From assembly GCF_032930845.1 (NCBI RefSeq), contig NZ_CP136758.1, positions 2,185,001 through 2,249,000 on the forward strand: DNA of 64,000 nt. The letters run 5' to 3'. The notes below the pieces were generated by a model. That model made no database searches, was not told the origin of the DNA, and was given only the letters and a program-made list of their open reading frames with translations. Numbering within the stretch: position 1 is the first letter of the stretch; each line of letters starts with the position of its first letter. Shown piece after piece: positions 11,827 through 58,646 of this stretch. Source of the stretch: Parvularcula sp. LCG005 (GTDB lineage: Bacteria > Pseudomonadota > Alphaproteobacteria > Caulobacterales > Parvularculaceae). Both the position numbers and the translations under genes were made by a program.

Positions 11827-11845
11827 TGGGATGGGTATCGTACGC

Positions 11846-12046: not shown

Positions 12047-12219
12047 AAACTACCTCCTTCGCGAGGATTAAACTGTAACCGGCGCAAAATATTTTTGTCC
12101 ATAGGCTGAGCATCGTGATTTGAAAAAAACAGAGAATAAAAGGCAAAAAAATCGTTAACAGCCCAACAAAGACGACCAATAGTGGTGTAACGATATAAAA
12201 TAACTACGGTTTTTCGAAA

Positions 12220-12864
12220 ATGACCCGCGATCTCGACAGTCTTTCTCCTCATGTTACTGAGGATATTATAACAATTGGCCAGCGGATTCGCGCCGCCCGC
12301 AAAACCCGCAACCTCAATCAGGAGGCACTGGCCAACCGGCTCGGGGTCACCCAGCCGACGGTGGCCAATTGGGAGGCCGACGTTCACAGCCCCCGACAGA
12401 TGATGCTTGCGCGCCTCGCAGAAGCGCTCGACGTTTCTCTGGGCTGGCTGGCGGGTGGCGAGACCGTGACGCCCGGCGCAGGCACCAATGCGGGCCACGG
12501 CTATCTGAATCGCGGCATGTATCATGTGCCGGTCCTGCCGCTGGCCCAACTGACGGGCCGTGATCGGCTGAGCGACCGGACCACCCGGGCGGCGGCCATT
12601 GATTACATTCCCATCAGTGCGCGCGACGGCGACTATTTCGCGACGTTTCTCACACCAGCACCCTATGAAGACGTCTTTCCCGGCGAAGCGCTGTTCGTGT
12701 TTGATGCACGACGAATAGCGATGGTGCCCGGCTGCTATGCCCTCATCGTCGGGCCAGCCGGTCCGCACCTGCACTATTGGCCCGCTAGCGCCCAGACCGG
12801 TGCGCCGTCGAAAGCGCTGGGCGAAGTGCTTGGCACCCTCGCCGTCACCGTCCGCTTCTTCTGA
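12220..12864 (+). CDS. XRE-type regulator with degenerate S24-like C-terminal domain
   Basis: Residues about 17-80 form a Cro/CI helix-turn-helix (IGQRIRAARKTRNLNQEALANRLGV, then TQPTVANWE), followed by a C-terminal domain laid out like the S24/LexA-CI family. Where active members have a Ser-Met pair, this protein reads RDGDYFATFLTPAPYEDVFPGEALFVFD, and no Lys of a Ser-Lys dyad is apparent. It is probably a non-cleaving regulator rather than an SOS-type self-cleaving repressor. It lies upstream of murL with 34 bases between them and could regulate or merely share transcription with murL-murD2. The upstream region is AT-rich. Confidence 0.75.
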   Translation: MTRDLDSLSPHVTEDIITIGQRIRAARKTRNLNQEALANRLGVTQPTVANWEADVHSPRQMMLARLAEALDVSLGWLAGGETVTPGAGTNAGHGYLNRGMYHVPVLPLAQLTGRDRLSDRTTRAAAIDYIPISARDGDYFATFLTPAPYEDVFPGEALFVFDARRIAMVPGCYALIVGPAGPHLHYWPASAQTGAPSKALGEVLGTLAVTVRFF

Positions 12865-12898
12865 AGCCTTGCCCCCAAGGGCGCATGGGGCCTAGAGC

Positions 12899-39730: not shown

Positions 39731-41308
39731 TTAGGCAAGGGGCGTGGCACGAGAGCGAAACGGCTCATCGGCGAAGTAACGGAGTTTTTGAAGCCGCATG
39801 GGGCGCAGGCCCGCTGGCAGGCAGAGGGCGTAATCCGACTCCGGATGATTGCGCCGCCCAAAATACCGGGCAATTTCATCGGGCAGCATCAGGCGGCTGC
39901 GGACCAGTTCAGGAGAATAGGAATTCTGTGCGCCGCCGCCGGTCTGGTGCGACTCTGCCCCGAACATAGGCATACTGCCGGACTTGTCAGCGCCAACGCT
40001 TGCCAGAAGCTTTGCCAGTCCGGCATGGGTGTCAGCTGTCGTGATGGAGACATTCACGGACTCACGCACCCGCAAGACTTCGGTGTCATCCAGCTTTTCA
40101 GAGAGATATTTGAGCGTAGTAAGGTCCGTATTGGCGAAGGCTGTCACCATCCCGGCATTGCCGATAAAGGTCTCCCAGCGTTTGGGGTATATGTCCTTGA
40201 GCTGACCCAGATCCTGCAGGATTGACCACAGCTTCACCTTGAACCCGGCGATGTAAGAGGCAGCCCGCTCGATCGCCTGGAGCTTTCCCAGCGTTGCAAA
40301 CTCATCCATCAGAAACAGGACCGGTAGGCTTTCATCTGAAGCGGGCGTGCGCTGCAAGGTCTGCAGACTGAGCGTTATCATCAGGCGCAGCCAGCGGGCG
40401 TGAGCAGCCAAGCGCCATTCAGGGAGGACGAGGTAGATCGTCATCCCTTGAGGTAAGCGCAGGTCTTTCAGATCGAATGTCGAGCCTGAAAGACACACAG
40501 CCATCGGGCCTGTCTGAAGGAACTCGACATTGCGGCGCGCAGTGGAAAGGACCGAGCCTCTCTCACGCTCTCCCATATCAATCATCATGGTCGCAATCGA
40601 GGAGACCGCCCCGCCAAAGCCTTCTTCTGCCGCCATATAATCAAGCAGCAGGTCGAGAGACGGCTGCTGACCTTCGCTTTCAGCCAGCCCTCTGAACGCC
40701 AGATCCTGCAGGTGGAACGGCGTGCGGTATTGATCTGGCGCGCTCGAGGCGATCCACAGGATGAGCGCTTTCAGGTAAGCCCGGGCAGTTTCGTGCCAAT
40801 GGGCATCGCGCTCATCCGTGTTGACCATAAAGGCGTCGGCCAGGCCGCTGGCGTCATCAACAACTTCAGGATCGTCGGGATCAATATAGCCAAAGAAGTT
40901 CAGCCTTCCGCGAAGCTCTTCAGGCACATGCGCAACCCGGAAGGGATCGAGGACGACGACTTTTTGCCCTAAAACTTTCGCGCGAAAGCGCGCCGTGATG
41001 CTGGCATTCTCCCCCTTGGGATCAATCACGACAGCCGAGCCGCCGTAATGCAGCAGGTTAGGGATGATCTGCGAGACGCCTTTACCGGAGCGCGATCCCG
41101 CCAAAGTCACCAGATGGCGATCATCCGTATAACCGATAATGCGGTTGCCGCTCCTGCCCAGAATGATGCGGTCGCGGGCATCATCCAGATTTGTGATGCC
41201 GAACGCCCGCTGCGCCACGGACGAGGCCAGAAACCCCGCCGTGGCAAGAGCCTCCTGGCCATCACTCGGATCGTCAGGATCGACACGCGGCAGAAGCGGA
41301 AAACTCAT
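39731..41308 (-). CDS. VirD4/TraG-family conjugative coupling ATPase
   Basis: Coupling proteins bring the relaxosome to a type IV secretion channel. The 525-residue product has Walker A LAGSRSGKGVSQIIPNLL (about 69-86), VIDPKGENASITARFR, Walker B VLFLMDEFATLGKLQAIERA and the TraG block LWSILQDLGQLKDIYPKRWETFIGNAG. The usual two N-terminal membrane spans are missing; the protein starts directly before the ATPase domain, so it may be soluble or recruited by a partner such as the upstream lipoprotein or single-span protein. ATGA overlap with the lipoprotein gene. Confidence 0.93.
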   Translation of the reverse strand: MSFPLLPRVDPDDPSDGQEALATAGFLASSVAQRAFGITNLDDARDRIILGRSGNRIIGYTDDRHLVTLAGSRSGKGVSQIIPNLLHYGGSAVVIDPKGENASITARFRAKVLGQKVVVLDPFRVAHVPEELRGRLNFFGYIDPDDPEVVDDASGLADAFMVNTDERDAHWHETARAYLKALILWIASSAPDQYRTPFHLQDLAFRGLAESEGQQPSLDLLLDYMAAEEGFGGAVSSIATMMIDMGERERGSVLSTARRNVEFLQTGPMAVCLSGSTFDLKDLRLPQGMTIYLVLPEWRLAAHARWLRLMITLSLQTLQRTPASDESLPVLFLMDEFATLGKLQAIERAASYIAGFKVKLWSILQDLGQLKDIYPKRWETFIGNAGMVTAFANTDLTTLKYLSEKLDDTEVLRVRESVNVSITTADTHAGLAKLLASVGADKSGSMPMFGAESHQTGGGAQNSYSPELVRSRLMLPDEIARYFGRRNHPESDYALCLPAGLRPMRLQKLRYFADEPFRSRATPLA

Positions 41309-43866: not shown

Positions 43867-43885
43867 GTGTATCCGTTGGGTACAC
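43867..43885 (+). promoter_or_regulatory. Palindrome upstream of RHH regulator
   Basis: GTGTATCCGTTGGGTACAC is a 19-base inverted repeat (GTGTANCC/GGNTACAC) ending nine bases before the RHH gene start. The spacing fits an operator through which the RHH protein represses the operon. Confidence 0.55.
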
Positions 43886-43893
43886 TCATCTTC

Positions 43894-44085
43894 ATGAAAG
43901 ATTCGGGCCTTCGCATTCGCATTGAGCGTGACCTCCGGGAGCGCTTCCTAGAGACATGCCGACGACAAGACCGGCCAGCGGCTCAGGTCATTCGCGAGTT
44001 CATGCGCGACTACATCGACGCCCATCCGAATCTCGAAAAGCCCACCGAGCGTGCTCCAAAATCCGATGTGAGGCGCAAGGCATGA
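43894..44085 (+). CDS. Ribbon-helix-helix regulator heading the defence operon
   Basis: From ATG 43894 the product is 63 residues: a short strand (GLRIRIERDLRERFLET), then two helices (CRRQDRPAAQVIREFMRDYIDAH), matching Arc/MetJ-type ribbon-helix-helix DNA-binding proteins; the tail is basic. An upstream start would add 48 residues read from non-coding sequence. It overlaps the helicase gene by four bases (ATGA). With a palindrome directly upstream, it is the likely autorepressor of the whole operon. Confidence 0.75.
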   Translation: MKDSGLRIRIERDLRERFLETCRRQDRPAAQVIREFMRDYIDAHPNLEKPTERAPKSDVRRKA

Positions 44086-47000
44086 GAGTCATCGACAATA
44101 TCACCACGCTGCTTGGCGAAGACCTGCGCCAAACGATAGGTCGCGGCGACCGGTTGAAAATTGCCGCCTCCTGCTTCTCAATTTACGCGTTCGAAGCCTT
44201 GAAATCCGAGCTGCAAAAGGTCGACGGTGTGGATTTCATTTTCACAGCACCGACGTTCGTGCCTGAGGGAGTGACCGATAAGCTACGAAAAGAACGGCGT
44301 GAATTTTTCATTCCGCGCGCTGAGCGAGAACGCAGTCTGTACGGCTCGGAGTTCGAAATTCAGCTTCGTAACAAGCTCACGCAGCGGGCGATTGCCCGCG
44401 AATGCGCGGATTGGATTCGTAAGAAAGCGCGCTTCAAATCGAACAAAACCCGCTCGGCGATGCAGCAATTTATGTGCGTGGACGGGCAGAAGGAGCCAGC
44501 TGCATACATGCCCATAAACGGCTTCACCGCTGTCGATCTTGGGTATCAGAAGGGCGACGCTGTTTCGAACATCGTCAATCGGTTCAACGCCGCGCCGTAC
44601 ACCGACACCTACCTGGATTTGTTCGACCAAATTTGGGCCGATTCAGAGAAGCTGGAAGATGTGACGGAAGCGATCTGCGCACATATTGAGTCCGTGTACC
44701 AAGAGAATTCGCCGGAGAGGATATATTTCCTAATCCTCTACAACCTCTTTCGAGAATTCCTCGAACAGGTCGATGAGGACGTTCTTCCAAACGATTTGAC
44801 CGGTTATCAGGACAGCGTCGTCTGGAATAAGCTATTCAATTATCAACGGGATGCCGCGACAGGCATCATCAATAAGCTGGAGACCTATAATGGGTGCATT
44901 CTTGCCGATAGCGTCGGCCTTGGAAAGACATTCACTGCTCTCGCGGTCATCAAATATTATGAGCTGCGCAACCGTGCGGTTCTGGTCTTGTGCCCTAAGA
45001 AACTCGCCGACAACTGGCTGAATTTCAATACAAACTTGAAAACCAACATCTTCTCGAAAGACCGCTTCAATTATGATGTGTTGTGTCACACGGATTTGTC
45101 GCGCACTACCGGCGACTCTTTCGGGATACCGCTAAACCGCGTGAACTGGGGCAACTACGATCTCGTTGTGATTGATGAATCTCACAATTTCCGCAACAAT
45201 GATATCTACAAGGACAAAGAGACCAGATATCAAAAACTGATGAACCAGGTTATCCGCGAGGGCGTGAAAACCAAAGTTTTGATGCTCTCTGCGACGCCGG
45301 TGAACAATCGCTTCACAGACCTACGAAATCAGCTGGCACTCGCATATGAGGGTCAATCTGAAAGTCTGAGTAAGAAGCTCAAGTCCCAAAGCAGTGTGGA
45401 AGAGATTTTTCGCCGAGCGCAGACGGCCTTCAACACCTGGTCGAAACTTCCGATTGAGGAGCGAACTGCCCCATCAATTCTCAAGATGCTCGACTTCGAC
45501 TTCTTCGAGCTTCTCGATAGCGTGACGATCGCAAGGTCGCGAAAGCACATCGAAACCTTCTATGACACGTCGGACATCGGAAAATTTCCCGAGCGTCGGA
45601 AGCCACTTTCGTTCCATTGCCCACTTACGACGCGAAAAGACGTCATGAGCCTGAACGAGATCGTTGCCCAACTCGGTATGCTCAAGCTCGCAGTCTACGC
45701 GCCCCTTAGCTATATCCTCCCCAGCCGGATCAAGAAATACGAAGAGTTATACGATACCGAAGTCGAGGGCGGTAAAGGGGCTTTGAAGCAAGCCGACCGG
45801 GAGCGGAGCCTTCAGGCTCTGATGACCACCAACCTTCTCAAGCGCTTAGAGAGTTCGGTCGAGGCGTTCCGCCTGACACTACGGTCGTTGAGGGCAAACC
45901 TAAACGGAACGCTCGATGCCATCGCTGACTTTGAGCGATCCGGCGGCATGTTTGAGGTTTCTGACTACAGCGAAGACGCAGCGAATTTCGATCCTGACGA
46001 TGACGATCTATCCGGCCTGGGCGAATTTACAGTTGGTAAAAAAATTCAGATCAGCCTTGCCGACATGGACGTGCAGTCCTGGACCCACGACCTAAAGGGA
46101 GACCTCGCGCTCATTGATGCCCTGCTCGCATCGATGGATCTCATTCGGCCTGAAGACGACGCGAAGCTCCAGCATCTTAAGAAGCACGTTCGCGATAAGA
46201 TCAACGCGCCGATCAATCCCGGCAACAAGAAGGTCCTGATTTTCACGGCCTTTGCCGACACGGCGAATTATCTTTACCAACACATCGCTAGCGACCTAGC
46301 GAAAACTGCAGGTCTAGACTCTGGGCGGGTCACAGGCTCCGACGCGCCAAAGACCACGCTCAAAAAGGGCTACGACTTCCAGTCCATCCTCACGCTCTTC
46401 TCGCCGCGCTCGAAGGACAAGCACCTCGTGCTCCCAAACGAGGATGCGGAGATCGACATACTGATTGCGACGGACTGCATCTCCGAAGGTCAAAACCTTC
46501 AGGACTGTGACTATCTAATCAACTACGACATCCACTGGAACCCCGTGCGGATCATCCAGCGTTTTGGTCGGATCGACCGGATCGGCTCCCCGAACGCTGA
46601 AATCCAGCTGGTGAACTACTGGCCCGACATCACGCTAGACGAATACATCAACCTGAAGGAGCGGGTCGAGAACCGAATGATGATCGCCGACGTCACCGCA
46701 ACCGGCGACGACAACGTCCTCACCGCCAAATCAAGCGAGATCGCCTATCGCAAGGATCAGCTGCGACGCCTCCAAGAGGAAGTCATCGAGCTCGAGGACG
46801 TGAAGACCGGAGTTTCGATCACGGACCTTGGCCTCAACGATTTTCGCATGGACCTACTCAACTATGTGAAGGAGCATGACGACCTGGAGAAGATGCCGAA
46901 CGGCCTGCATGCGGTTGTCCCGGCAGATCCAACGCTCGGGTTGGAGCCCGGGGTCATCTTCGCCCTTCGCAACATCCATGACGGCGTGAACATCAACCAG

Positions 47001-47354
47001 CAAAACCGGCTGCACCCGTACTATCTCGTCTACATCTCGAACGACGGCGAGATCGTTGCGGACCATACCGAGGTGAAGAAGCTGCTCGATTTGATGCGGG
47101 CCAGCTGCAAGGGCGAAGGCCAGCCGATCCAAGCGGTCTGCCGCCTCTTCAATGACCAGACCGACGACGGGCGGAATATGAACCGCCAGTCGGAGCTGTT
47201 GAGTGAAGCCATCCGATCCATGATCGACGTGAAGGAGGAGAAGGACATTGAGAGCCTGTTCTCCCCCGGTCGCACATCGGCGCTCGTGAACACCATCGCA
47301 GGGCTGGATGACTTCGAGCTAATCGCGTTCCTGGTGGTGCAGGAGGCTGCATGA
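44082..47354 (+). CDS. SNF2-type helicase with N-terminal PLD-like region
   Basis: The 1090-residue product starts at ATG 44082, decided by the ATGA overlap. Residues 1 to about 210 resemble the PLD-like region of such helicases (LKIAASCFSIYAFEALKSELQ), but no intact HxK motif is visible. The helicase core has Walker A ILADSVGLGKTFTALAV (near 278), DESH (near 365), MLSATPVNNRF (near 403) and the C-terminal lobe IATDCISEGQNLQDCDYLINYD...RIIQRFGRIDRIGS (about 797-836). It is SF2/SNF2-like and may translocate on DNA as the sensor or motor of the system; DrmD of DISARM is a functional comparison only. Confidence 0.88.
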   Translation: MRVIDNITTLLGEDLRQTIGRGDRLKIAASCFSIYAFEALKSELQKVDGVDFIFTAPTFVPEGVTDKLRKERREFFIPRAERERSLYGSEFEIQLRNKLTQRAIARECADWIRKKARFKSNKTRSAMQQFMCVDGQKEPAAYMPINGFTAVDLGYQKGDAVSNIVNRFNAAPYTDTYLDLFDQIWADSEKLEDVTEAICAHIESVYQENSPERIYFLILYNLFREFLEQVDEDVLPNDLTGYQDSVVWNKLFNYQRDAATGIINKLETYNGCILADSVGLGKTFTALAVIKYYELRNRAVLVLCPKKLADNWLNFNTNLKTNIFSKDRFNYDVLCHTDLSRTTGDSFGIPLNRVNWGNYDLVVIDESHNFRNNDIYKDKETRYQKLMNQVIREGVKTKVLMLSATPVNNRFTDLRNQLALAYEGQSESLSKKLKSQSSVEEIFRRAQTAFNTWSKLPIEERTAPSILKMLDFDFFELLDSVTIARSRKHIETFYDTSDIGKFPERRKPLSFHCPLTTRKDVMSLNEIVAQLGMLKLAVYAPLSYILPSRIKKYEELYDTEVEGGKGALKQADRERSLQALMTTNLLKRLESSVEAFRLTLRSLRANLNGTLDAIADFERSGGMFEVSDYSEDAANFDPDDDDLSGLGEFTVGKKIQISLADMDVQSWTHDLKGDLALIDALLASMDLIRPEDDAKLQHLKKHVRDKINAPINPGNKKVLIFTAFADTANYLYQHIASDLAKTAGLDSGRVTGSDAPKTTLKKGYDFQSILTLFSPRSKDKHLVLPNEDAEIDILIATDCISEGQNLQDCDYLINYDIHWNPVRIIQRFGRIDRIGSPNAEIQLVNYWPDITLDEYINLKERVENRMMIADVTATGDDNVLTAKSSEIAYRKDQLRRLQEEVIELEDVKTGVSITDLGLNDFRMDLLNYVKEHDDLEKMPNGLHAVVPADPTLGLEPGVIFALRNIHDGVNINQQNRLHPYYLVYISNDGEIVADHTEVKKLLDLMRASCKGEGQPIQAVCRLFNDQTDDGRNMNRQSELLSEAIRSMIDVKEEKDIESLFSPGRTSALVNTIAGLDDFELIAFLVVQEAA

Positions 47355-48019
47355 CCGCCTGCTATGACTACCCAAAGGCGGCCCGATTTGGGCGCATGGT
47401 CCCGAAGACCAAAATCTACGATGCAGCGCGCGCGCCTGAAAAGCTTCGCCAGCTCTTTGTGGACCAAGTGGACCGCATCACGTGGGCGTACAAGGTGGCG
47501 CCGGAGACGATCAATCTAAATGCCGTGCCGGGCGTGCCTGAGATACAGGTGTTCGAGGTGCGCCTCCGGGCTGCCACGCTTGAGCATGCCGTACTCGCGG
47601 CTATCGATAAGGCGGTAGCTTACCCGATCCTCTTTGAGCTGATCAAAGGAGGAGAGCGGCAGATGATCGCTGCCTACAAGCGCCCGAGCGAAGCAGACAG
47701 CGCAAGGTGGGTGGTCAGCGAGTATTTCGCAGCGGGCTGGGAGCCTGTGGATAACCCACGCAAACCCATCCCTCGCGTCCTCGACCTCGGCGCGCTCTAT
47801 GATAGGGTTTTATCTGAATTGATGCCCGTGCGTCCGCTTCAGGGTGAAAAGCTGCCCGACCGTGTTGCGCGGATCGAGGCGATTTGGGCGACAGAACGCG
47901 ACGTCGCGCGGATTAAGGCGCGGCTCGCCCGCGAAAAGCAATTCAACAAAAGGATCGTGATTAACGCCGAGCTAAGGCGCGCTCTGGGGATGTTAGAAGC
48001 CCTTCGGAATGAACAATGA
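47351..48019 (+). CDS. DUF4391 protein of the defence operon
   Basis: The 222-residue product fits DUF4391 (KLRQLFVDQVDRITWAYKVAPETINLNAV, IQVFEVRLRA, VLAAIDKAVAYPILFEL, QMIAAYKRP). This family is commonly encoded beside helicase and methyltransferase genes, and its biochemical function is unknown. The C-terminal third is helical (ATERDVARIKARLAREKQFNKRIVINAELRRA). It overlaps the helicase stop by four bases, so stoichiometric synthesis is likely. Confidence 0.82.
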   Translation: MTACYDYPKAARFGRMVPKTKIYDAARAPEKLRQLFVDQVDRITWAYKVAPETINLNAVPGVPEIQVFEVRLRAATLEHAVLAAIDKAVAYPILFELIKGGERQMIAAYKRPSEADSARWVVSEYFAAGWEPVDNPRKPIPRVLDLGALYDRVLSELMPVRPLQGEKLPDRVARIEAIWATERDVARIKARLAREKQFNKRIVINAELRRALGMLEALRNEQ

Positions 48020-48040
48020 TACGCGCGCGGGAAACGATAT

Positions 48041-48970
48041 ATGAAAATTGATCGACTATATACGCACCCAGACGCAGATTTGCTGAAAACTATCGTCGAT
48101 TCACCAAATTTACGCGTAGCCTCTCCTTACTATTCAGAGGTTGCCCTGCGGGTGATAGATGAAAATACAGTACGCGATATGGTTTTTATTACTCGTTTGC
48201 CTTACGAATTTAATAGACCACCCGCCTTTATTGAAAACGACCCAGCTCCAATTATATCTTTATATAAACGAATTCAAAGATTCACGCTCTATGCGCTTCC
48301 CACATTGCATGCAAAAATTTATATAAACTATCGCTGTGCTTGGATTGGGAGCTCAAATTTTTCAACGAACGGCTTTTCCAGTCAAGAGGAGATAATCGCC
48401 GAAATTCCCCAACCCGCGAATGAGATAGTTAATGCGTTTGATTCGTACATCGGTGTTTCGAGACCTATTAAATTGACCGAAGTCCAACAGCTCGCACACT
48501 GGATTGATGCGGGCTTGACCAAGGTTCTAAACGCACAAACCTCCCAAATAAGTGAGCGAGGAAGCGTCCATCCACCGTACTCCATTGAAGATTTTGAAGT
48601 TTGGCTCCAAGAACCGACTGCACCCCACTCCGAGATCAGACGCACGATACTCAACCAATTGCACGGCAAGAACCAAATGAGTGGTCATGTGAAACATGCA
48701 TTTAATGGCGTTCTTTCCTTCTTTCGAATATATCCCAGCAATTTATCATCAGTGAAGTGCTCGGATTATGAAAATATTCCAGACAGGACCATAAATCAAT
48801 TACGAGATTTCATAATTGAGTATGGCGATGAATACAGGGGTATAAATGGTGGGTATTGGAGAAATTATCTTTCCTCTAATATTGGCGGTATGCAGAATGG
48901 CGGAGGTGCCGGAGATGCTGTGGTTAAGCGATGCCTTGTTCTAATGCCGCACTATATTGATCACAAGTAA
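48041..48970 (+). CDS. PLD-family nuclease-like protein with one HKD motif
   Basis: The 309-residue protein carries one phospholipase-D-type motif: LPTLHAKIYINYRCAWIGSSNFSTNGFSSQEEI (His near 90, Lys near 92, Asn near 107). Single-motif members dimerise to form an active site, as in Nuc and the restriction enzyme BfiI, so DNA cleavage is plausible. The C-terminal half has no recognised domain. The gene is much more AT-rich than the helicase before it and lies 21 bases after DUF4391, suggesting later insertion into the operon. Confidence 0.78.
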   Translation: MKIDRLYTHPDADLLKTIVDSPNLRVASPYYSEVALRVIDENTVRDMVFITRLPYEFNRPPAFIENDPAPIISLYKRIQRFTLYALPTLHAKIYINYRCAWIGSSNFSTNGFSSQEEIIAEIPQPANEIVNAFDSYIGVSRPIKLTEVQQLAHWIDAGLTKVLNAQTSQISERGSVHPPYSIEDFEVWLQEPTAPHSEIRRTILNQLHGKNQMSGHVKHAFNGVLSFFRIYPSNLSSVKCSDYENIPDRTINQLRDFIIEYGDEYRGINGGYWRNYLSSNIGGMQNGGGAGDAVVKRCLVLMPHYIDHK

Positions 48971-48985
48971 TAGAGGATTCGCAAA

Positions 48986-50896
48986 GTGGGTAAAAAAATG
49001 AAGATGCATAGCCCGAACCTGGCTGACGAGAACATCGCGAAAATTTACGAGCTGTTTCCGGGCTGCGTGACGGAAGCAACGGATGAGAGCGGCAAACTTT
49101 TTTTTGCGGTCGACTTCGACCAGCTTCGCCAGGAATTATCCAATTGCATCGTCGAGGGGCCTCAGGAGCGCTACCGGCTTGATTGGCCTGGGAAGAAGGA
49201 AGCAATTTTGACGGCCAATACGCCGATAGCCAAAACCCTCCGCCCTAAAAGGTCAGACAGCGTAAATTTCGAAGAGACGGGAAACCTCTTCATCGAGGGG
49301 GATAATCTAGAAGCATTGAAGCTAATCCAAGAATCGTTTCTTGGCCGCGTCGACATGATCTACATAGACCCACCTTACAACACGGGCCGAAACCTAATAT
49401 ACAAAAATGATTATAGTGAGACTGTTTCAGATTTTCTTGAGCGGTCGAACCAAAAATCTGAAGAAAAAGACAAACTTGTCGCTAATCCGGAGACTAGCGG
49501 GAGATTTCATTCCGAGTGGCTTTCAATGATGTATCCACGTTTGAGGGTGGCAAAAAATATTCTCAAACGAGACGGTGTTCTCGTATGCGCTATTGATGAA
49601 AATGAATTCGGCACTCTTTCTGTTCTCCTAAAAGAAGTTTTCAGCGGCTCTGCCTGGGAGCACGCCTATGTGTCTGTGGTTCACAATCCAAGAGGACAAC
49701 AAGGGGCGAATTTCTCGTATGTGAATGAGTACTTGATTTTTATATATCCCTCGGGGGTGAAAGCGATTGGCGATAGGCAGATCAGAGAAGAAGATGTTAG
49801 TTGGTCCCAGTTCCGCAATTGGGGCGGTGAATCAGAGCGCAGGGATGCCAAAAATTGCTTTTATCCGGTTATGGTGAAAGGCGACGAGATCGTCGGATTT
49901 GGCGATGTTGTACCTGATCATGTTCATCCTGCTCAGACTGAGTGGGACGGCGATATTGCTTACGTTTATCCGATCGACAACCAAGGCATAGAAAGAAAGT
50001 GGCGGTATGCTCGCCAAAGTGTTGACGAAATCTCAATGATGCTGCGTGCCCGCAAAGATGCTAACGGTTACCAAATTGAGATTGGAAAGACATTTGGGCG
50101 ATACAAGAGTGTTTGGACAGATAAGCGCTATGATTCAAACGAATACGGAACAAAACTGATCAATAATCTCGTCGAAGGATCAGGCTTCACGTTCCCGAAG
50201 AGTCTATGGGCGGTCTATGATCCAATCGAAGCGGTTACGCGAAACAACAAAGACGCAATCATACTGGATTTTTTCGCGGGCTCCGCGACGACCGCACACG
50301 CGGTTATGCAGTTAAATGCTAATGATGACGGAAACCGAAAATTCATCATGGTCCAGGTTCCCGAGCCTATTCCTGAAGATTCGCCACCATTCAAAAATGG
50401 TTTTCATACGATCGCTGAAATTTCGAAAGAACGCATTCGTCAGGCCGGAAAGCAACTTGCGACTACCTCGACAAGCATCGATATGGGGATGCGGGTTCTC
50501 AAGGTTGATAGTTCAAATATGTCTTCAACCTACTATTCCGCCGAAGAACTGACTCAAGGCGCGCTACTAGACGCAGTCGAAAACGTAAAACCGGACCGGA
50601 CAGACCCCGAGGATTTGCTCTTCCAGGTGCTCGTCGATTGGGGCGTCGATTTGACTCTGCCGATCCGCCGAGAAACGATCAGTGATAAGACCGTCTTCTT
50701 CGTCAACCATGAGCCCTATGACCTGATCGCGTGCTTCGACTATGGCGTGACCGAAGAGCTGGTGAAGGAGCTCGCCAAGCATGAGCCAGCTCGCGTTGTG
50801 TTTCGCGACAATGGTTTCGTCTCCGATGCCGTGAAGATCAATGTGGAGCAAATTTTCAAGCAGCTCTCCCCCTCCACCGACGTGAAGTCGATCTAA
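48986..50896 (+). CDS. mod: Type III restriction-modification methyltransferase (Mod)
   Basis: This beta-class adenine-N6 methyltransferase has 636 residues from a GTG start at 48986 with GAGGA upstream. Motif IV is IDPPYNTG (about 126-133) and motif I follows much later as [18 protein letters not shown] (about 427-444), the type III order. Between them the sequence is AT-rich and variable, as expected of the target-recognition domain; the ends are GC-rich. It should methylate one strand of an asymmetric site and give Res its specificity. Its product is 13 bases before res. Confidence 0.93.
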
Positions 50897-50909
50897 GGGC
50901 GGGTGCGGC

Positions 50910-53900
50910 ATGAAGCTCAAATTCAAAACCCAAGCCTATCAGACCGCCGCCGTTGAGGCGGTGATCGATTGCTTTGAGGGCCAGCCCAAGTCCAATCCGC
51001 TCAGCTATCGGATTGATCCCGGCAAGCGCACCGACGTGCGACTGGAGCTGGAAGCCGGGTTCAAGAACGAGGACATCCTGCTTGGGGATGCCGCGCTTCT
51101 GAGTAACATCCAGGCCGTCCAAAAGCGCCAAAACCTGCCTCTATCAAAATCGCTGACCGACTTCTCCATGCTTGACGCGAAGGGTGCGCGGAAGCCCGTC
51201 AAAGGCGGCTACAAGCCCGGCGCGAAGATCAATCTCGATATCGAGATGGAAACCGGTACCGGAAAGACCTATTGCTACATCAAGACCATGTTCGAGATGC
51301 ACAAGCGTTTCGGCTGGTCGAAATTCATCGTCATGGTGCCGAGCATCGCCATCCGCGAAGGCGTCCAAAAATCCTTCCAGATCACGGCGGATCACTTCGC
51401 GGAAACCTACGGCAAAAAGGCGCGGTTCTTCACCTACAATTCCAAGCGCCTGCACGAGCTGGAGAGCTTCTCCAGCGACGCCGGGATCAATGTGATGATC
51501 ATCAACATCCAGGCGTTTAATGCCAAGGGTGCTGACAATCGCCGAATCTACGACGAGCTGGACGACTTCCAGTCCCGCCGCCCGATCGATGTGATCAGCG
51601 CGAACCGTCCGATCCTGATCCTCGATGAACCTCAAAAAATGGAAGGCAAGGCAACACTCGACGCGCTCCCAAAATTCAATCCGCTGATGATCTTGCGGTA
51701 CTCCGCGACCCACAAGACGCAGCATAATAAGGTGCACCGGCTCGACGCCCTCGACGCGTACAACCAGAAGCTCGTGAAGAAGATTGCCGTGCGCGGTATC
51801 CAGACACGCGGCCTCGCAGGGACAAACGCCTACCTCTATCTCGAAGGCATCGACATCTCGACCAAAGCGCCCGTGGCCCGGATCGAGATGGAGGTGAAGC
51901 TCAAATCCGGTGAGATCAAACGCCAGCTGAAGCGGCTCGAATTCAAGGATGATCTTTATACGGCGTCAGGTGATCTCGATCAGTATCGCGGCTATGTCAT
52001 CTCACAGATCGACGCCAATCAGGACGTGATCGAATTCACGAACGGCGAGAGCCTTATCGCCGGTGAAGCCCAAGGCGACGTGAACGAAAACGACATCCGC
52101 CGCATCCAAATTCGCGAAACGATCAAGGCGCATTTCGACAAGGAAAAGCAGCTCTTCGCTCAGGGCATCAAGGTCCTCTCACTCTTCTTCATCGACGAGG
52201 TGAAGAAGTATCGCGACTACGACCAGGACGACGAGAAAGGCGAATATGCCCGCGTGTTCGAGCGCGAGTATGCAACCCTCAAAGAGGAATATCTCTCGGA
52301 GTTGGCGATCGATAATGACGAGTACCGTGCCTATCTCGGCGAGATTGATCCGGGCAAAACGCACAACGGTTATTTCTCGATCGACAAGAAGAACCGCATG
52401 GTCGATCCGAGCATGAAAAAGACGGGTGAGGATAAGGGGCTCTCGGACGACGAGACCGCCTACGATCTAATCCTGAAAGACAAAGAGCGACTGCTATCGT
52501 TCGAAGAGCCGACGCGCTTCATCTTCTCACACTCTGCGCTTCGTGAGGGCTGGGACAACCCGAATGTCTTCGTCATGTGCATGCTGAAGCACAGCGACAA
52601 CACGATATCCCGCCGTCAGGAAGTTGGCCGTGGTCTTCGTCTGTCCGTCGATCGCCACGGAGAGCGGATCGACCACCCATCGCTTGTGCATGAGATTAAC
52701 GTCCTGACCGTCGTCGCGAGCGAGAGCTATAAGGACTTCGTCAAAGGTCTCCAGACCGAGATAGCGGAGACGCTTTCCGCGCGTCCGCGCAAAGCTGACG
52801 AAGACTACTTCACCGGTAAGGTTCTCCAAACCGAGGATGGTCCGGTCGAGGTGACGCCCGCGATGGCGAAACAGATCTACCGCTATCTGCTGAAGAATGA
52901 CTTCACGGACGATTCCGACGGGATAACGGACGCATATCATCAAGCAAAAGAAGCTGGCGAACTGCCAGGCTTTGCCGAGGAGCTTGAACCCTACCGTCAC
53001 CAGATCATCGACCTGATCGACAGCGTCTTTGACGACAGCAAGCTGCCCCGCATCGAAGATGGCCGAAAGCCGAAGACCAACCCGCTGAACGCCAATTTCA
53101 AAAAGAAGGAATTCCAGGAACTTTGGGCACGGATCAATCGCAAGGCCGTCTATCGCGTCGAATTTGATTCCCAAGAACTGATCGCCAAAGCAATCAAGGC
53201 ACTCGATAGCGAACTTCGAGTGACGCCGCTGCAGTACACCGTTCAGCGTGGTGAGCAGGCCGCTGCGTTGACCGATGAGCAGCTGAGAACGGGCGATGGC
53301 TTCAAGCTATCTGAAACCTCCACCGAGAAGGGTGGGTTCGTTTATTCGGACGTGACCTATGACCTTGTCGGAAAGGTCGCCGAAAACACACAGCTAACGC
53401 GCCGCACGGTCGCGCACATTTTAACTGGCGTCCAACCACTGATTTTCGACCAGTTCAAGTCGAACCCGGAACATTTCATTGCCGAAGCCTCACGTCTCAT
53501 AAAGGAGCAGAAGGCAACGGCGGTCATCGAGAAACTCCAGTACGATGAAGTTGAAGACCGCTATGAGACAGACATCTTCACCGCCGCTCAGAGTGGGCAA
53601 GACTTCTCTCGCGCGACCGAGAAGCTGAAAAGGCACATCTACGATTACTGTGTGGTCGATTCCAGCCAAGAACGCCGCTTCGTGGACGAATTGGATACAA
53701 GCGATGAGGTGGTGGTCTACGCCAAACTTCCAAGAGGCTTTCTAATCCCAACCCCGGTCGGCGACTACAATCCAGATTGGGCAATTTCGTTCACTCGAGG
53801 GTGCGTGAAACACATTTACTTTTTGGCCGAGACCAAAGGTTCCATGTCATCGATGGCGCTTCGCGAAATTGAACGCACCAAGATCAAATGCGCGCGCAAA

Positions 53901-54005
53901 TTCTTCAACGAGATCAATCAACGGATCGAGGCCGACAAGGTCAAGTACGACGTCGTGACCGATTTCGGTAAACTGATGGACATGGTCAGCGGGGTGGCTG
54001 CGTGA
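50910..54005 (+). CDS. res: Type III restriction enzyme subunit (Res)
   Basis: A 1031-residue SF2 translocase-nuclease. Walker A is [17 protein letters not shown] (near 113-121), motif II is ILDEPQ (near 238), motif [11 protein letters not shown], and the C-terminal lobe has [18 protein letters not shown] and [12 protein letters not shown] (about 541-575). The PD-(D/E)xK endonuclease is at the end: [12 protein letters not shown] (about 953) and FLAETKGS (about 974). All catalytic elements are intact. With Mod it forms a complete type III core; no frameshift is seen. Confidence 0.95.
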
Positions 54006-54015
54006 GGCTGGTAGA

Positions 54016-55206
54016 ATGGTAAAGCGCAATTCCGCCGGTGCATTAACATCCGAAGAGAAGCCGATTGTTAAAGCGCTCCTCAAGAAGGGCTGGCGGAATC
54101 AAGATATTCAACATCTATTGAATAAGGGCCGCGTTGCAACGATCAATGCCGCCCGCATAACCGAGGTAAAGTCCGATCAATCAATCAAATCTTCCCGTGA
54201 GGAAGACGTCGATTTCTTTATTCGAAAGAAAGATTCATACGATCCTGTCACCGGATTGAATCTATATGACGACGAGCGATTAATACGTGCACGTGAAGCT
54301 ATGATACTTGCAGTCCAAAGCTTTAATAGCCCGACGCTGCGTTTCAAAGCGGAACAATTTGCGGTTCAATCAAACATAGCTTGGACCTACCTTCTCCACG
54401 AATACTACAACCGGGAGGGGGTCAAGATCGTCGGAAAGGATGGGCGGTCGTTGTTGCTGTCGCAAATGATAAAACGCCACGATTTCCCTCTATCTGCCGG
54501 GGTTGCCAATAATATCCGTGATATGATCGATATCCGTGATACGGTGGAGCATAATCTACTGCGACGCTCAGACGTCAAATTCTTTGGTTTGTTTCAAGCA
54601 AGCTGTTTGAATTTTGACAAAGCGATATGTCAGCTGTTTGGAGATAGGGTATCTCTTAGATCGGATTTATCGATTGCCCTACAGTTTACCAAGGTGAATT
54701 TCTCTCAGCTGATCGAATTGCAGAAGTTCGATATTCCTGAGCATATCGAGGCGCTGGACGCCCGAATAGATCAAAGGTTATCAAAGGAAGAAAAGGCCGA
54801 CTTGGATTATCGATTCAGGGTGGTTTATATGTTGGAGGCGAGCTCCAAGTCGAAATCGCATTTCCAGTTTATTCAGCCTGGATCGGACGAAGGCAAGGAG
54901 ATCCACAACATACTCGAGAAAAGAGTAATTGCTGATGATGACTACCCATATAAGCCTAGTCAGGCTGCGAAATTAATCCGGGAACGCTCTGGAAAGAAAT
55001 TTAGCTCACACAATCACACTCAAGCTTGGAAGCGATACAGAGTCCGACCAGCGTCAAATGCTAAATCTAGAGATCAGACCGATAAAGAATTCTGCATATT
55101 TCATAAAACGCATGGAGATTATACCTACAACGATGCCTGGGTGGACTTCATTGCCGAAAAGATTTCTGACGAAGCTGAGTTCGACCGACTGAAGTCTACT
55201 AAATAA
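54016..55206 (+). CDS. DUF3644 protein closing the defence operon
   Basis: The 396-residue product has a DUF3644 core (RFKAEQFAVQSNIAWTYLLHEYYNREGV, NIRDMIDIRDTVEHNLLRRSD, FFGLFQASCLNFDKAICQLFGDR). The N-terminus (EEKPIVKALLKKGWRNQDIQHLLNKGRVATINAARI) looks like a helix-turn-helix, and the C-terminus (YKPSQAAKLIRERSGKKFSSHNHTQAWKRYRV) may be a second DNA-binding unit. DUF3644 proteins are often found in defence islands, without assigned activity. It lies 10 bases after res in an AT-rich stretch. Confidence 0.8.
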   Translation: MVKRNSAGALTSEEKPIVKALLKKGWRNQDIQHLLNKGRVATINAARITEVKSDQSIKSSREEDVDFFIRKKDSYDPVTGLNLYDDERLIRAREAMILAVQSFNSPTLRFKAEQFAVQSNIAWTYLLHEYYNREGVKIVGKDGRSLLLSQMIKRHDFPLSAGVANNIRDMIDIRDTVEHNLLRRSDVKFFGLFQASCLNFDKAICQLFGDRVSLRSDLSIALQFTKVNFSQLIELQKFDIPEHIEALDARIDQRLSKEEKADLDYRFRVVYMLEASSKSKSHFQFIQPGSDEGKEIHNILEKRVIADDDYPYKPSQAAKLIRERSGKKFSSHNHTQAWKRYRVRPASNAKSRDQTDKEFCIFHKTHGDYTYNDAWVDFIAEKISDEAEFDRLKSTK

Positions 55207-55352: not shown

Positions 55353-56702
55353 TCAACGAGATATAGATGGACCTTGAGGCTTGCGCCTATACGTTCCGGT
55401 TTCGGGAGCTTTGCCTCGACGGCCACTATATTCCGTCTTCCGATTTTTTCGGCTCCGTTTGATCTCCGAGGCTACAAGTCGAGGCGAAACCTCTCGACCT
55501 TCTTTTCGATACCGCGCCAGCTCCCGGTGGATCTCCGCCAGGAGTTTTGTGTGCCGCTGGCGTTCCCATTTGATCGGCTTTTGCGGCATCCGCCGTTGTT
55601 GAAGCTGTGTCTTCACGAGAGCGTGGCGTTCTTGGCTATCGCGCAGCTTGGCGGCTTCCGCCTCGCGCAAGTTCTCCGCAATGATCTTATCTCTCTTACC
55701 GCTCACCCGCTGCCAGAGGCCGCGCCAGCCTGTTGATAGGCGCGCGGCTCTGGCAAGCGCATCCTGCTTTGCTTGTACGGTCAATTTCTGATCGAGCGTC
55801 GCGCGTTCTTGGCGGTGCCGTGCCGTCATCTCGGTTTTCTTCCGAAGGTGCGGTTCCATCTGCCGCCGATGCTGCTCGTCTGCCTGCCGCAGATAACCGC
55901 GCATGACCGGGGTCATTTCCTGCGCCATCTGGCGCTTCGTTTCCTCGATAGAGGGCGATTCTTTTGGAGAACCCAGACGAGATTCCATGTCCTTTTTTGT
56001 CACGCCGAGATACCGAGATAGCGAGAGCACTTCACCGTCATAGGGCACCGCGACAAATCCTCGGCGGTCGCCACGAGCGAGCTTGAACCCGCGTTCCTGT
56101 AGCGCTGCTTCAAACCCGGCACGGCTGTCCGAGATAGCCCAGGCATCCAGCATCGTCTGTTTGAGGTCGCGGGCGTTGCGGCCCATCCGTTTGGCTTGCT
56201 GCCATTCGGCCAGTGTGAAGTTGCGGGGATCGGATTGACCGTGCTGAGCCAGTCCCCGTGGCATCTTCCATCCATGCTCCAGATACAGCTCCCGTGAGAC
56301 CTCCTGCATTTTGCTCTTCGAGAAGGAAAGCGGAATGGCTTTCATTTCCTGGGCATCGATCCGAGACCACACGGCGTGGCAATGTCGACGGCCTTCCTTT
56401 TCATGAAAGACGATGGCGCGCGGCTGGCCTGTCAGGCCGAGCTTTTCTTCAACCTTGCTAATAGCACTATCAAACTCTTCCTCGCTGACCTCTGCATCTT
56501 CGGGCGGATTCAGCGACAGGGAGAAGAGAAACTGCTGGCACCTGGTGCCACGAGAGATTGCATAGGCTTCGTTGAAAGCACCCTGAAGCGTTTCCGACGC
56601 GAAGCCTGAAATCTCATGCACATGAACGTGCTCGTTTTCCGGCGACAGAAGATGCAGGGCGAGGTTTTGGGCCCCGCCGCGCTGATTACCAACCAGGATC
56701 AT
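55353..56702 (-). CDS. Relaxase/mobilization nuclease (MobA/VirD2-like)
   Basis: The 449-residue product from ATG 56702, four bases after mobC, has HVHVHEISGF at residues 25-34 and the metal-binding histidine motif FHEKEGRRHCHAVWSRID (His100, 107 and 109), typical of relaxases that nick at oriT and lead DNA into a recipient. The C-terminal half is helical and highly basic (QLQQRRMPQKPIKWERQRHTKLL; ASEIKRSRKNRKTEYS). No helicase or primase domain is attached. Together with MobC and the coupling protein it makes the element mobilizable. Confidence 0.88.
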   Translation of the reverse strand: MILVGNQRGGAQNLALHLLSPENEHVHVHEISGFASETLQGAFNEAYAISRGTRCQQFLFSLSLNPPEDAEVSEEEFDSAISKVEEKLGLTGQPRAIVFHEKEGRRHCHAVWSRIDAQEMKAIPLSFSKSKMQEVSRELYLEHGWKMPRGLAQHGQSDPRNFTLAEWQQAKRMGRNARDLKQTMLDAWAISDSRAGFEAALQERGFKLARGDRRGFVAVPYDGEVLSLSRYLGVTKKDMESRLGSPKESPSIEETKRQMAQEMTPVMRGYLRQADEQHRRQMEPHLRKKTEMTARHRQERATLDQKLTVQAKQDALARAARLSTGWRGLWQRVSGKRDKIIAENLREAEAAKLRDSQERHALVKTQLQQRRMPQKPIKWERQRHTKLLAEIHRELARYRKEGREVSPRLVASEIKRSRKNRKTEYSGRRGKAPETGTYRRKPQGPSISR

Positions 56703-56706
56703 GGAG

Positions 56707-57114
56707 CTAACCCTTGGACGTGAGGCCGAGTGCAAAGATCAACGCATCCCGCATTTGCCGGATATCTGCGCAGGCCGATTGGAGTTCTGACACCAGATCG
56801 GTTGTCACCGGCAGAGTGCCAATATTTGCCGCCTTGGCGATCTGGTTCAGGTTTGAGGCGAGATGCGATTGCCCTAGTACGGCTAGCGCCTGGGAAATGG
56901 CCGCATCGTCGGTTTGCGGCCTGCGATAGCTGCGCCGAGGTGAAGCGTCATCGCCAAAGACCTTTTGCCGGATATAGGCATTTACCGAGCGCCGTCCGGC
57001 CCGTTCCTTGAGAAGGGCTCGCTCTTCTTCCGTCACTCGCAAGGAAATGGGCGCGGGACGTTTTTTCTTCGGCTTGGCGGCTTTGTTGAATTTGGCTACT
57101 TGCCCGCCGCTCAT
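56707..57114 (-). CDS. mobC: MobC relaxosome accessory protein
   Basis: The 135-residue basic protein matches MobC: KKKRPAPISLRVTEEERALLKERAGRRSVNAYIRQKVFG is ribbon-helix-helix-like, and LAVLGQSHLASNLNQIAKAANIGTLPV is the family signature. MobC helps to open oriT for the relaxase, whose gene follows four bases later. Its ATG overlaps the stop of an upstream small gene (ATGA). Confidence 0.9.
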   Translation of the reverse strand: MSGGQVAKFNKAAKPKKKRPAPISLRVTEEERALLKERAGRRSVNAYIRQKVFGDDASPRRSYRRPQTDDAAISQALAVLGQSHLASNLNQIAKAANIGTLPVTTDLVSELQSACADIRQMRDALIFALGLTSKG

Positions 57115-57323: not shown

Positions 57324-57534
57324 ATCTCGAAGGCTCTTGATGGGCCGCGCGCCAGAGGGCCCAGGGAATGGCGGCGAGTGGTGTTGTCAGCAACAGCCAC
57401 GACAACAGATGCGCGGGGCCATCGCCAACCAGAGCGGCAATCAGCCCGATAGAGGTCATCACACCGAAAAGACCCGGGATCAGAAACGTACGCTCAAGCC
57501 AGGTCGCGCGGCGCCGATTGACGAGCGGGCTCAT
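57295..57534 (-). CDS. Small membrane protein of iron-uptake operon
   Basis: A 79-residue protein with two hydrophobic segments (FLIPGLFGVMTSIGLIAALVG and LLSWLLLTTPLAAIPWALW). Its ATG overlaps the stop of the PepSY gene (ATGA), linking it to the TonB-receptor operon. Small proteins like this (DUF3649-type) are seen beside PepSY proteins. Its last residues (RFEAAARSRT) may be altered by insertion of the mobile element. Confidence 0.6.
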   Translation of the reverse strand: MSPLVNRRRATWLERTFLIPGLFGVMTSIGLIAALVGDGPAHLLSWLLLTTPLAAIPWALWRAAHQEPSRFEAAARSRT

Positions 57535-58643
57535 ACCTCCCGCCTTCCGCGGCGGCGGCGTTCGAAAAACAGATAAATCCCGGTGATCAGCACAATGATC
57601 GTCACAAGATCAAACAGAAACCACAGGATTTTCAGCGGCAGCCCGCCATAATCACCGAAATGAAGCGGGCGCGATAGCGACAGGGCCTTCGATGTCCACG
57701 GCATCTCACGCTTGCCTGCGACGTCACCAGTGACAGCATCCACCAGAACCGGCGTAATCAGCTGTTCTGTCAATGGTGTGTTGCCGTGGAGGAAGATCGC
57801 AAAATGATGGTCGGTCGAGTAATCCGTTCCCGGAAAGGCCACGAACTGCAATGTCATCCCCGGCGCTTCTGCCACAGCCGCGCTGATGGCTTCGTCCAGT
57901 GAAGCCAGCGATGTGGGGACATCCCGCCCCTCATAGGGCGCGATCAGATCCGCCAGGGCGTGGTCCCGCCACTGATCATTGATCGGTTTTTCAAGCGTGT
58001 TCACCACGCCTGTCACGCCGACGGCACTGGCCCACATCACGGTGACGATGCCGAGGAGATTGTGAAGGTCGAGCCAGCGCGCGCGCCGCGAACGGGCAAG
58101 GCGGACCATGCCAAACTCGTGCTTGCGCATGAAGGGGGCATAAAGAACAACGCCAGACACAATGGCCAGGGTGAAGGCGGCGCCCATGGCCCCTAGAAAA
58201 AGCATGCCTGGCAGGCCCAGAAACATGTCCGTATGCAGCTGCAACAGAAAGTCCATGATGCCGCCTGCGGGCGCCTCTACGGGCACCGCGTCACCGCTTG
58301 TCCGGTCAATGGGCGCAAAATGCATGGCGGAACCCGGTGCATCGGGCGTTGGTCCAGAGGTGACATTCACCACGGGGCGATCAATGTCGAAGCTCATATA
58401 GAGGGGGACTTCGTCCTGACGGCGCGACAACGCAGCTTCAAGCACGTCGTCATAGGAGAGCAGCGGGCCGTCGGGGTTGGCCGGAGACCAGCTTTGTGTG
58501 CTCAGCGCGTTTTCGATCTCATCGTGAAAGATCAGCGGAAGACCCGTGACGCACAGCATCAGGAGAAAGACCGTACACACTAGGCTGGACCATGTATGCA
58601 CGACACTCCATCGTCTGACGGCGGAACGGGTCATCCTGTTCAT
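57531..58643 (-). CDS. PepSY-associated transmembrane protein (siderophore utilisation)
   Basis: The 370-residue product has the PepSY_TM layout: a first membrane helix near the N-terminus (VVHTWSSLVCTVFLLMLCVTGLPLIF), a periplasmic PepSY-like region, two central helices (GMLFLGAMGAAFTLAIVSGVVLYAP; LGIVTVMWASAVGVTGVV) and a final helix (ILWFLFDLVTIIVLITGIYLFF). Conserved histidines (RWSVVHTW; LLQLHTDMF; WLDLHNLLG) may bind haem or iron; relatives act in ferric-siderophore reduction at the inner membrane. ATG 58643 is preferred over TTG 58646. Directly behind the TonB receptor gene. Confidence 0.88.
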   Translation of the reverse strand: MNRMTRSAVRRWSVVHTWSSLVCTVFLLMLCVTGLPLIFHDEIENALSTQSWSPANPDGPLLSYDDVLEAALSRRQDEVPLYMSFDIDRPVVNVTSGPTPDAPGSAMHFAPIDRTSGDAVPVEAPAGGIMDFLLQLHTDMFLGLPGMLFLGAMGAAFTLAIVSGVVLYAPFMRKHEFGMVRLARSRRARWLDLHNLLGIVTVMWASAVGVTGVVNTLEKPINDQWRDHALADLIAPYEGRDVPTSLASLDEAISAAVAEAPGMTLQFVAFPGTDYSTDHHFAIFLHGNTPLTEQLITPVLVDAVTGDVAGKREMPWTSKALSLSRPLHFGDYGGLPLKILWFLFDLVTIIVLITGIYLFFERRRRGRREV

Positions 58644-58646
58644 CAA

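Follow-up and report, generated by a model that had tools for sequence, protein, structure and literature searches.

In teaching and in annotation, type III restriction is treated as a matter of two genes, mod and res, whose products methylate one strand and cut at inverted site pairs. Class 1 of the DISARM systems is made up of DrmD, DrmMI, DrmA, DrmB and DrmC, of which DrmD partners methyltransferases, and the class represented by the restriction enzyme SauUSI is counted as type IV. Here we describe an operon of Parvularcula sp. LCG005 in which a seemingly classic two-gene type III system proves to be a recurring four-gene unit with swappable add-ons. The operon is located in a window of 64,000 nucleotides (the whole stretch of DNA that was analysed, positions 2185001-2249000 of the single 3.08-Mb contig NZ_CP136758.1), of which positions 43894-55206 carry seven genes on the plus strand, in the order RHH regulator, SNF2-type helicase, DUF4391 protein, PLD-family protein, Mod, Res and DUF3644 protein. 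Both the RHH and helicase genes and the helicase and DUF4391 genes are joined by ATGA overlaps, and the remaining junctions have gaps of 21, 15, 13 and 10 bases, in operon order. An earlier interpretation made from the DNA letters alone, the sequence-only reading, had given all seven genes in this order on one strand, with gaps of at most 21 bases and two ATGA overlaps, and this is borne out. The longest open reading frame (ORF) of the helicase begins at 43956; position 44082 was adopted as its start because only then does the gene have the ATGA overlap with RHH and the protein an N-terminus like that of its relatives.

The relation of the additional genes to Mod and Res was approached through DUF4391, the least known part of the operon. 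Loci were picked by DUF4391 alone and, therefore, the linkage is not built into the sample. Among 398 genomes of the phylum to which the window belongs, 23 contain the family PF14335, with 26 places listed. The neighbourhoods of those places were taken as 22 stretches, two places on short contigs of genome G153 being left out; together with one viral contig, the best 80 relatives, out of at least 463, from named genomes and the window itself, they make up 104 loci. The helicase, DUF4391, Mod and Res are all present, in this order and on one strand, in 85 of the 104 loci, and chance is therefore excluded for this core. Eighteen of the other 19 loci end at a contig edge on the side where genes are missing. 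The one true exception, L034, has 9.6 kb downstream of DUF4391 without Mod, its helicase side being cut off, and it is the only locus in which helicase-DUF4391 was seen without a neighbouring Mod. The core ORFs are all near full length in 77 of the 85 complete loci, with one or two shortened or split in the other eight. Furthermore, the helicase and DUF4391 genes overlap by exactly 4 nucleotides in 76 of 98 loci, and their spacing does not exceed 30 nucleotides in 94. As far as gene order and spacing can tell, these loci show that the four core genes form one conserved unit. The sequence-only reading had argued that the operon goes beyond a two-gene type III system, which is confirmed by the conservation of the helicase and DUF4391 with Mod-Res. 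It had also proposed a seven-gene system, to be checked by the linkage of the extra genes with Mod and Res elsewhere. This part stands for the helicase and DUF4391, with L034 as the one true exception, and falls for PLD, DUF3644 and RHH, which are variable, so that there is no seven-gene unit.

The same order was found again in eight further loci: on two Escherichia coli chromosomes, on plasmids of E. coli, Mycolicibacterium, Acinetobacter and Desulforapulum, and on two phage-labelled gut contigs (four of 39 plasmid records and two of 88 E. coli genomes were examined in detail). Res is reduced to a remnant on the Desulforapulum plasmid, mod is interrupted by an insertion sequence (IS) in one E. 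coli and in Acinetobacter, and 815 bases separate the helicase from DUF4391 on one gut contig. When helicase-DUF4391 DNA of Yersinia rohdei was used as query, matches were obtained in 88 of 5426 complete E. coli genomes, 54 of them over at least 80% of the query. Since the unit is present in E. coli, its parts can be tested in laboratory strains. One of these loci, L209, is a 115-kb IncFIB plasmid (pEC21Z137-115K) that carries the full core at 3254-12300, near repA, together with dnaE and a homing endonuclease gene, and it is perhaps a phage-plasmid.

The sequence-only reading had regarded the motifs of Mod and Res as intact, and the relatives uphold this. Mod has DPPY at residue 128 and FFAGS later, at 429, which is the motif order of a type III Mod. 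Conservation among 81 Mods is only 0.29-0.48 in six of the eight 25-residue blocks that make up residues 226-425, the usual sign of exchanged specificity, and this is the predicted target recognition region. Solved relatives of Mod are EcoP15I Mod (4zcf_A, E 1.3e-44), 6k0w and Mbo45V. Res contains GTGKT and DEPQ, followed by QEVGRGLRL and, at the C-terminus, by the nuclease motif NPDW...ETKG, and these motifs are conserved among 72 sequences. It thus combines the SF2 motor and the C-terminal PD-(D/E)XK nuclease of type III enzymes, and its solved relative is EcoP15I Res (4zcf_C, E 1.1e-67). In a plain type III system mod and res would be the conserved set. Here two more genes are conserved with them in 85 of 104 DUF4391 loci and, therefore, we file the operon as a type III variant, not as a plain member. 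That it is an extended type III restriction-modification system with slots for accessory effectors is, in our judgement, an even call.

The way in which the core proteins vary together provides a second line of evidence. Over 71 loci of the window's clade, distances correlate at 0.88 between helicase and DUF4391, 0.87 between helicase and Res, and 0.83 between DUF4391 and Res; the helicase-Res value was reached by none of 1000 permutations, the highest of which gave 0.26. The C-terminus of Mod (residues 500-636) behaves in the same way, with 0.88 for Res and 0.81 for the helicase. The Mod target region gives only 0.11-0.13 with the helicase, DUF4391 and Res, and residues 1-215 are likewise uncorrelated with the rest. 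A repeat with 70 loci, another Mod alignment and rank correlation agrees, and no tested part of Mod 20-499 correlates in it. Distances of this kind show a common evolution of the helicase, DUF4391, Res and the C-terminal part of Mod, and an exchange of the catalytic and target-recognition parts of Mod. The simple reading would be one chassis with an exchangeable specificity head. It should be noted that exchange of mod within the clade spans most of the gene (20-499), not just the target region, and that 500-636 follows Res.

The SNF2 motor motifs of the helicase are almost invariant among 93 sequences. Residues 179-1087 match the PADLOC model C3a139 'HKD+Snf2' with 425.6 bits, and residues 1-250 model as a PLD fold (mean predicted local distance difference test score, pLDDT, 71.5, with poor stretches). 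The fold matches of this N-terminus at E <= 0.001 are SauUSI and NgoAVII R, at modest template modelling (TM) scores of 0.45-0.46 by query, with SauUSI at the top (E 6e-5, TM 0.46). HxK, the motif on which membership of the nuclease family depends, is absent from 92 of the 93 homologues, the exception being L052, which has an HxK in residues 112-165, and GSxN is absent from the N-terminal region in all 93. This double loss marks the helicase N-terminus as a pseudo-nuclease, a dead PLD domain.

Reverse searches were run in the same 398 genomes, with at most two candidates per genome scored. With the helicase model, 21 places reached at least 347 bits, followed by a drop to 185, and all but one of the 21 lie in genomes that are positive for DUF4391. 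The exception, L203 (genome G071, 6954-14237), has neither DUF4391 nor a type III Mod-Res, and the helicase gene is followed by an unassigned 234-amino-acid gene and an Eco57I/TaqI-type methyltransferase. Four distant relatives, L204-L207, each lie beside an ORF of 1111-1215 amino acids; the two of these that were tested, in L204 and L205, are type ISP or Eco57I methyltransferases.

The AlphaFold2 model of DUF4391 has a mean pLDDT of 94.1. It gave no PDB fold match at E <= 0.001, and the window's protein matched no PADLOC model at E <= 0.01. A run of residues at 195-199, EKQFN, is well conserved (E195 is invariant in 18 sequences and, in another comparison, EKQF in ten) and in the model sits at the turn joining two long C-terminal helices, from which we infer that it may be a docking tip. 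A role of DUF4391 as a PD-(D/E)XK nuclease was considered and rejected, given the lack of a fold match and an invariant K110 that has no acidic residue at -2 (A108 in the window).

Other genes occupy slots within and around the core. The gap between DUF4391 and Mod exceeds 300 bases in 27 of 101 loci, and that between Mod and Res in 20 of 88. These inner slots contain 53 same-strand ORFs of at least 90 amino acids in 21 clusters, and each family was named from one representative: Schlafen-AlbA_2 proteins with an ATPase domain (nine loci), a family whose representative has no Pfam match (six), DUF1016/YhcG nucleases (five), DUF2130 (four), and OLD-like AAA-TOPRIM proteins, UvrD-like helicases and ORF6N (three each); Fic, GmrSD, Bro-N and a transposase also occur. 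Downstream of Res, in 81 loci with room (seven without room were left out), the next gene is on the same strand within 60 bases in 38, within 200 bases in eight and farther away in 15, and on the opposite strand in 20. The families found there include SIR2 (six loci, with a HerA partner in the one pair scanned), PDC-S14 (six) and GajA (four), and further PDC-S11, Mokosh-like proteins and HEC-05. Of the co-directional first genes, about 24 of 44 are members of PADLOC families by a count made by hand, in which L100 and L113 were included through their cluster membership (44 of the 46 co-directional loci were used, the Res fragments L080 and L121 being taken out). We considered this slot as proof of coupling and rejected it: up to ten of 35 opposite or distant first genes are also PADLOC members, among matches listed for 25 of 121 families, and therefore the loci double as defence islands, with at most a modest enrichment. 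The position ahead of the helicase varies as well. It is taken by a WYL gene in 22 of 92 loci with room, and by an RHH gene in the window, L050 and L051; in the accessible part of one report, WYL regulators are found with islands that contain type III systems (PMC9122601). Cargo differs even between close relatives, and by this distribution PLD, DUF3644 and RHH appear as exchangeable accessories, not as core.

The PLD protein keeps the HxK...GSSN motif of PLD/HKD nucleases (HAKIYINYRCAWIGSSN), with Pfam scores of 25.6 and 21.3 bits that lie slightly below the curated cut-offs of 27 and 23.8. Its family adjoins the core in three of the 104 loci, namely the window, L106 and L122. The PLDs of L106 and L122, which are 99% alike, occupy the same slot and have 42% identity to that of the window. 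No relative of the window's PLD was found in the plasmid collection at E 1e-5, and the family lies beside the core in none of 239 other genomes of the class that were searched. The sequence-only reading had suggested that a helicase may sense DNA while a PLD enzyme contributes cleavage; because the core unit mostly occurs without it, PLD cannot, on this distribution, be essential to the unit. A seven-gene unit was rejected on the same PLD count and on L050 and L051, which keep RHH and the core without PLD; the nearest relative (Res 93%) also lacks DUF3644.

DUF3644 has the Rx4H motif RDTVEH, in agreement with the Rx4-6H signature of HEPN proteins. About 0.85 chance matches to Rx4H are expected in one such protein, and the position is kept in all six plasmid relatives aligned, from four phyla or classes. 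DUF3644 has been named as a HEPN family, and its Pfam model took in some AbiJ sequences, as stated in the portion available of PMC3710099. The protein is thus a predicted HEPN RNase, with a probable last-resort role in cell arrest. The second downstream gene of L001 (15527-16831) and the window's DUF3644 share only about 80 N-terminal residues, 40% identical, which is possibly a common adaptor domain. RHH homologues are present only in L050 and L051 among the 103 other loci, and other genes take this place in most. The candidate RHH operator has 16 of 19 bases in common with the corresponding L050 site and occurs only once in the window; an inverted-repeat search, at its length limit, reported nothing for it.

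Features of the operon and its flanks (positions within the window)
Feature	Position	Strand	Remarks
Type IV (conjugation) coupling protein	39731-41308	-	flank of operon
Candidate RHH operator (GTGTATCC-N5-GTACAC)	43867-43885	+	directly 5' of RHH start codon; weak evidence
RHH regulator (accessory)	43894-44085	+	Pfam RHH_9, 24.8 bits (cut-off 23.4)
SNF2-type helicase with predicted N-terminal pseudo-PLD domain (core)	44082-47354	+	SNF2-rel_dom and Helicase_C above cut-off
DUF4391 protein with C-terminal helical hairpin (core; adaptor role guessed)	47351-48019	+	PF14335, 175.5 bits
PLD-family (HKD) nuclease (accessory, DUF4391/Mod slot)	48041-48970	+	HAKIYINYRCAWIGSSN motif
Type III Mod (core; N6-adenine methyltransferase by family)	48986-50896	+	PADLOC MTase_III, 608.6 bits; Pfam N6_N4_Mtase
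Type III Res (core; SF2 motor and PD-(D/E)XK nuclease)	50910-54005	+	PADLOC REase_III, 1141.6 bits; RE_endonuc, ResIII
DUF3644 (HEPN superfamily; accessory, downstream slot)	54016-55206	+	PF12358, 127.9 bits; PADLOC PDC-S19
Relaxase and NikA/MobC-like gene	55353-57114	-	other flank of operon
TonB siderophore receptor with PepSY membrane protein	57531-60794	-	ordinary neighbours
GH43 glycosidase	62068-63822	-	ordinary neighbour

The operon is bracketed by a coupling protein on one side and, on the other, by a relaxase and NikA/MobC-like gene, which makes it probable that a mobilizable element carries it as cargo. The guanine-plus-cytosine (GC) fraction of the whole operon is 0.517. It amounts to 0.426 in PLD and 0.450 in DUF3644, below the 0.537 of the helicase, 0.593 of DUF4391 and 0.547 of Res, and to 0.484 in Mod. 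The closest relatives are alphaproteobacterial, and the Res of L051 (Hyphobacterium indicum) is 93% identical across 1027 columns. Predicted promoters, searched as sigma-70-type only, and predicted terminators were as numerous as in shuffled sequences (9 vs 9.0 and 13 vs 12.5, respectively).

The reading that we favour, with roughly half of our confidence, is that of one machine, in which the SNF2 helicase with its dead PLD domain, DUF4391, Mod and Res form the core, and the cargo effectors serve as back-up. The helicase and DUF4391 would form a tight sub-complex, and the tip of the EKQFN hairpin of DUF4391 would dock it onto Res and the Mod C-terminus. Mod would mark self DNA and Mod-Res would find unmodified sites, while the SNF2 protein, as a second motor, would translocate on unmodified DNA, so that restriction becomes productive or depends less on site pairs. 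PLD, by DNA cleavage, and DUF3644, as a HEPN RNase, would be exchangeable back-up effectors in two cargo slots, and RHH would repress the operon.

Several points weigh against this reading. How the helicase and DUF4391 would act in restriction is deduced from composition and linkage, and the role of DUF4391 as an adaptor is a guess, given that no fold matches it and that its hairpin comes from one AlphaFold job. Starting from Res (REase_III, PDLC03647), 38 places of at least 600 bits were found and sorted by hand: 19 have DUF4391 upstream (three of these are cut before a full helicase), eight do not, and 11 are cut off or split over contigs. Eight of the 27 decidable Res loci (L190, L191, L195 and L198-L202) thus lack helicase-DUF4391, and one of them, L198, lies inside the window's own Res clade; with this share of unlinked loci, Mod-Res can probably work alone. 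The linked loci do not form one clade in the Res tree (FastTree, 53 of 96 rows), in which seven unlinked rows need at least four changes, and the record of phage P1 has res and an IS5-split mod without such extra genes. Moreover, whole Mod does correlate with the other proteins, at 0.74-0.76, over 77 loci of both clades; as the decoupling is seen within the window's clade and the correlation over both, it follows that Mod exchange is within the clade. Finally, joint transfer together with short exchanges inside mod can give the same picture, and the co-variation therefore supports a shared machine and does not prove it. As a separate observation, L199 (5205-9961) and L201 (4950-9998) carry another SNF2 helicase directly upstream of Mod and lack DUF4391, and they possibly represent a second helicase-bearing type III variant.

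How well the one-machine reading holds depends on its rivals. The main one, which we hold possible in a tentative way, is that helicase-DUF4391 constitutes a further defence arm, which works without Res and has in common with it the use of Mod as self/non-self marker, so that one methyltransferase would serve two restriction modules, comparable to the helicase-methyltransferase pairs of DISARM and DUF499 systems. The helicase is related to the DrmD, PLD-helicase and HmaA models. Its relative in L203 sits with an Eco57I-type methyltransferase, the four weaker ones adjoin large ORFs of which both that were tested are methyltransferases, and no Res was found in these five loci. Likewise, plasmid pHRM2a carries the helicase, DUF4391 and Mod together with no more than a remnant of Res. 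However, with HxK lost in 92 of 93 helicases and DUF4391 devoid of a fold match, such an arm would miss a cutting effector unless cargo supplies it, and the distances of the helicase closely follow those of Res and of the C-terminal part of Mod, and not those of the other parts of Mod. We think it unlikely that helicase-DUF4391 is a safety or assembly factor controlling Res, for example by delaying restriction until the DNA is methylated or by removing stalled Mod-Res after replication. Regulators often precede the module (the WYL genes above), and some operons reside on plasmids or mobile elements, which would become established more easily if restriction came late; indeed, delayed translation of Res is described for EcoP15I in the portion available of PMC12707154. 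Nevertheless, the eight unlinked loci and EcoP1 of phage P1 manage without helicase-DUF4391, and a motor of 1090 amino acids would be costly for a regulator.

Two simpler explanations do worse. That this is an ordinary two-gene type III system with passenger genes seems quite improbable: the motifs of Mod and Res are intact, the module is missing from eight of 27 decidable loci, and PLD, DUF3644 and RHH are passengers in this sense, but passengers would not show a fixed order, a 4-nucleotide overlap in 76 of 98 loci and co-variation with Res, and the fixed arrangement extends to an actinobacterial plasmid and E. coli. The idea of a divergent DISARM, Hma/DUF499 (BREX-related) or BREX system is largely refuted, to the point of being scarcely credible. 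It draws on cross-matches of the helicase to models of these systems (DrmD, 120.8 bits; DrmA, 70.8 bits; HmaA and BrxH), yet the score for the NCBIfam model DISARM_DrmD is 152 bits, the cut-off being 610. PADLOC, Pfam and NCBIfam scans covered the seven operon proteins and three flanking ones, the rest of the window lying outside their scope, and DrmB (DUF1998), DUF499/HmaC, PglZ and BrxC were not among the matches listed for these ten proteins. Membership of DISARM, BREX and DUF499/Hma is thus rejected, and here the sequence-only reading, which had seen no DISARM or BREX, was right; for Zorya and Druantia, which it had not seen either, the comparison extends to the PADLOC matches listed.

A further, speculative and rather unlikely reading is that helicase-DUF4391 would turn the type III enzyme into a sensing hub, which reads Mod-Res action that has failed or is blocked (for instance, by anti-restriction proteins) and releases a suicide effector from a cargo slot. 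If so, one conserved detector would serve many exchangeable death effectors, DUF3644 in the window and SIR2-HerA, Gabija, Schlafen, OLD-TOPRIM, Fic or others elsewhere. In a more general sense, 19 of the 27 decidable Res places in the 398 genomes have DUF4391 and, where the contig permits, the helicase alongside and, therefore, the descriptions of many systems listed as simple type III may be incomplete. A literature search by terms, with bioRxiv, REBASE and DefenseFinder outside its coverage, found no description of the four-gene unit and gave no hits for the E. coli site, and in the parts of the publications available DUF4391 was met only as a table label, in one paper. One Cronobacter element, as given in the available part of PMC12757443, lists a type III endonuclease, Mod, a DNA helicase IV and an SNF2 helicase without joining them; these genes probably are the helicase-DUF4391-Mod-Res unit.

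The operon can be compared with several known systems. It has in common with DISARM class 1 a DrmD-related SNF2 helicase, an adenine methyltransferase and a PLD protein; it differs in having a type III Res and an optional PLD, with no DrmB among the matches listed. With the DUF499-centred (Hma) systems it shares an SNF2 helicase, an N6 methyltransferase and like kinds of cargo, whereas no match to the DUF499 AAA+ ATPase is listed for it, its Mod is of type III and its Res is separate. The accessible part of a 2026 BREX survey (PMC12839542) states that the Hma helicase pairs with a methyltransferase, and that HEPN, Schlafen, OLD, HKD and GmrSD nucleases serve BREX and DUF499 systems as auxiliary or back-up effectors; the kinds of cargo are those of our operon, and the core is different. 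The PLD-fold domain is shared with SauUSI, a PLD-helicase restriction enzyme, but in the operon helicase the PLD motif has been lost and the protein sits beside Mod-Res and DUF4391. The PADLOC model 'HKD+Snf2' also matches this helicase, but it is a single-gene model. With the type III systems EcoP15I and EcoP1I, finally, the operon shares the Mod and Res motifs, the mod-res order, 4zcf_A and 4zcf_C among the best solved relatives and a variable central part of Mod, and it is set apart from them by the SNF2 helicase and DUF4391 that precede mod.

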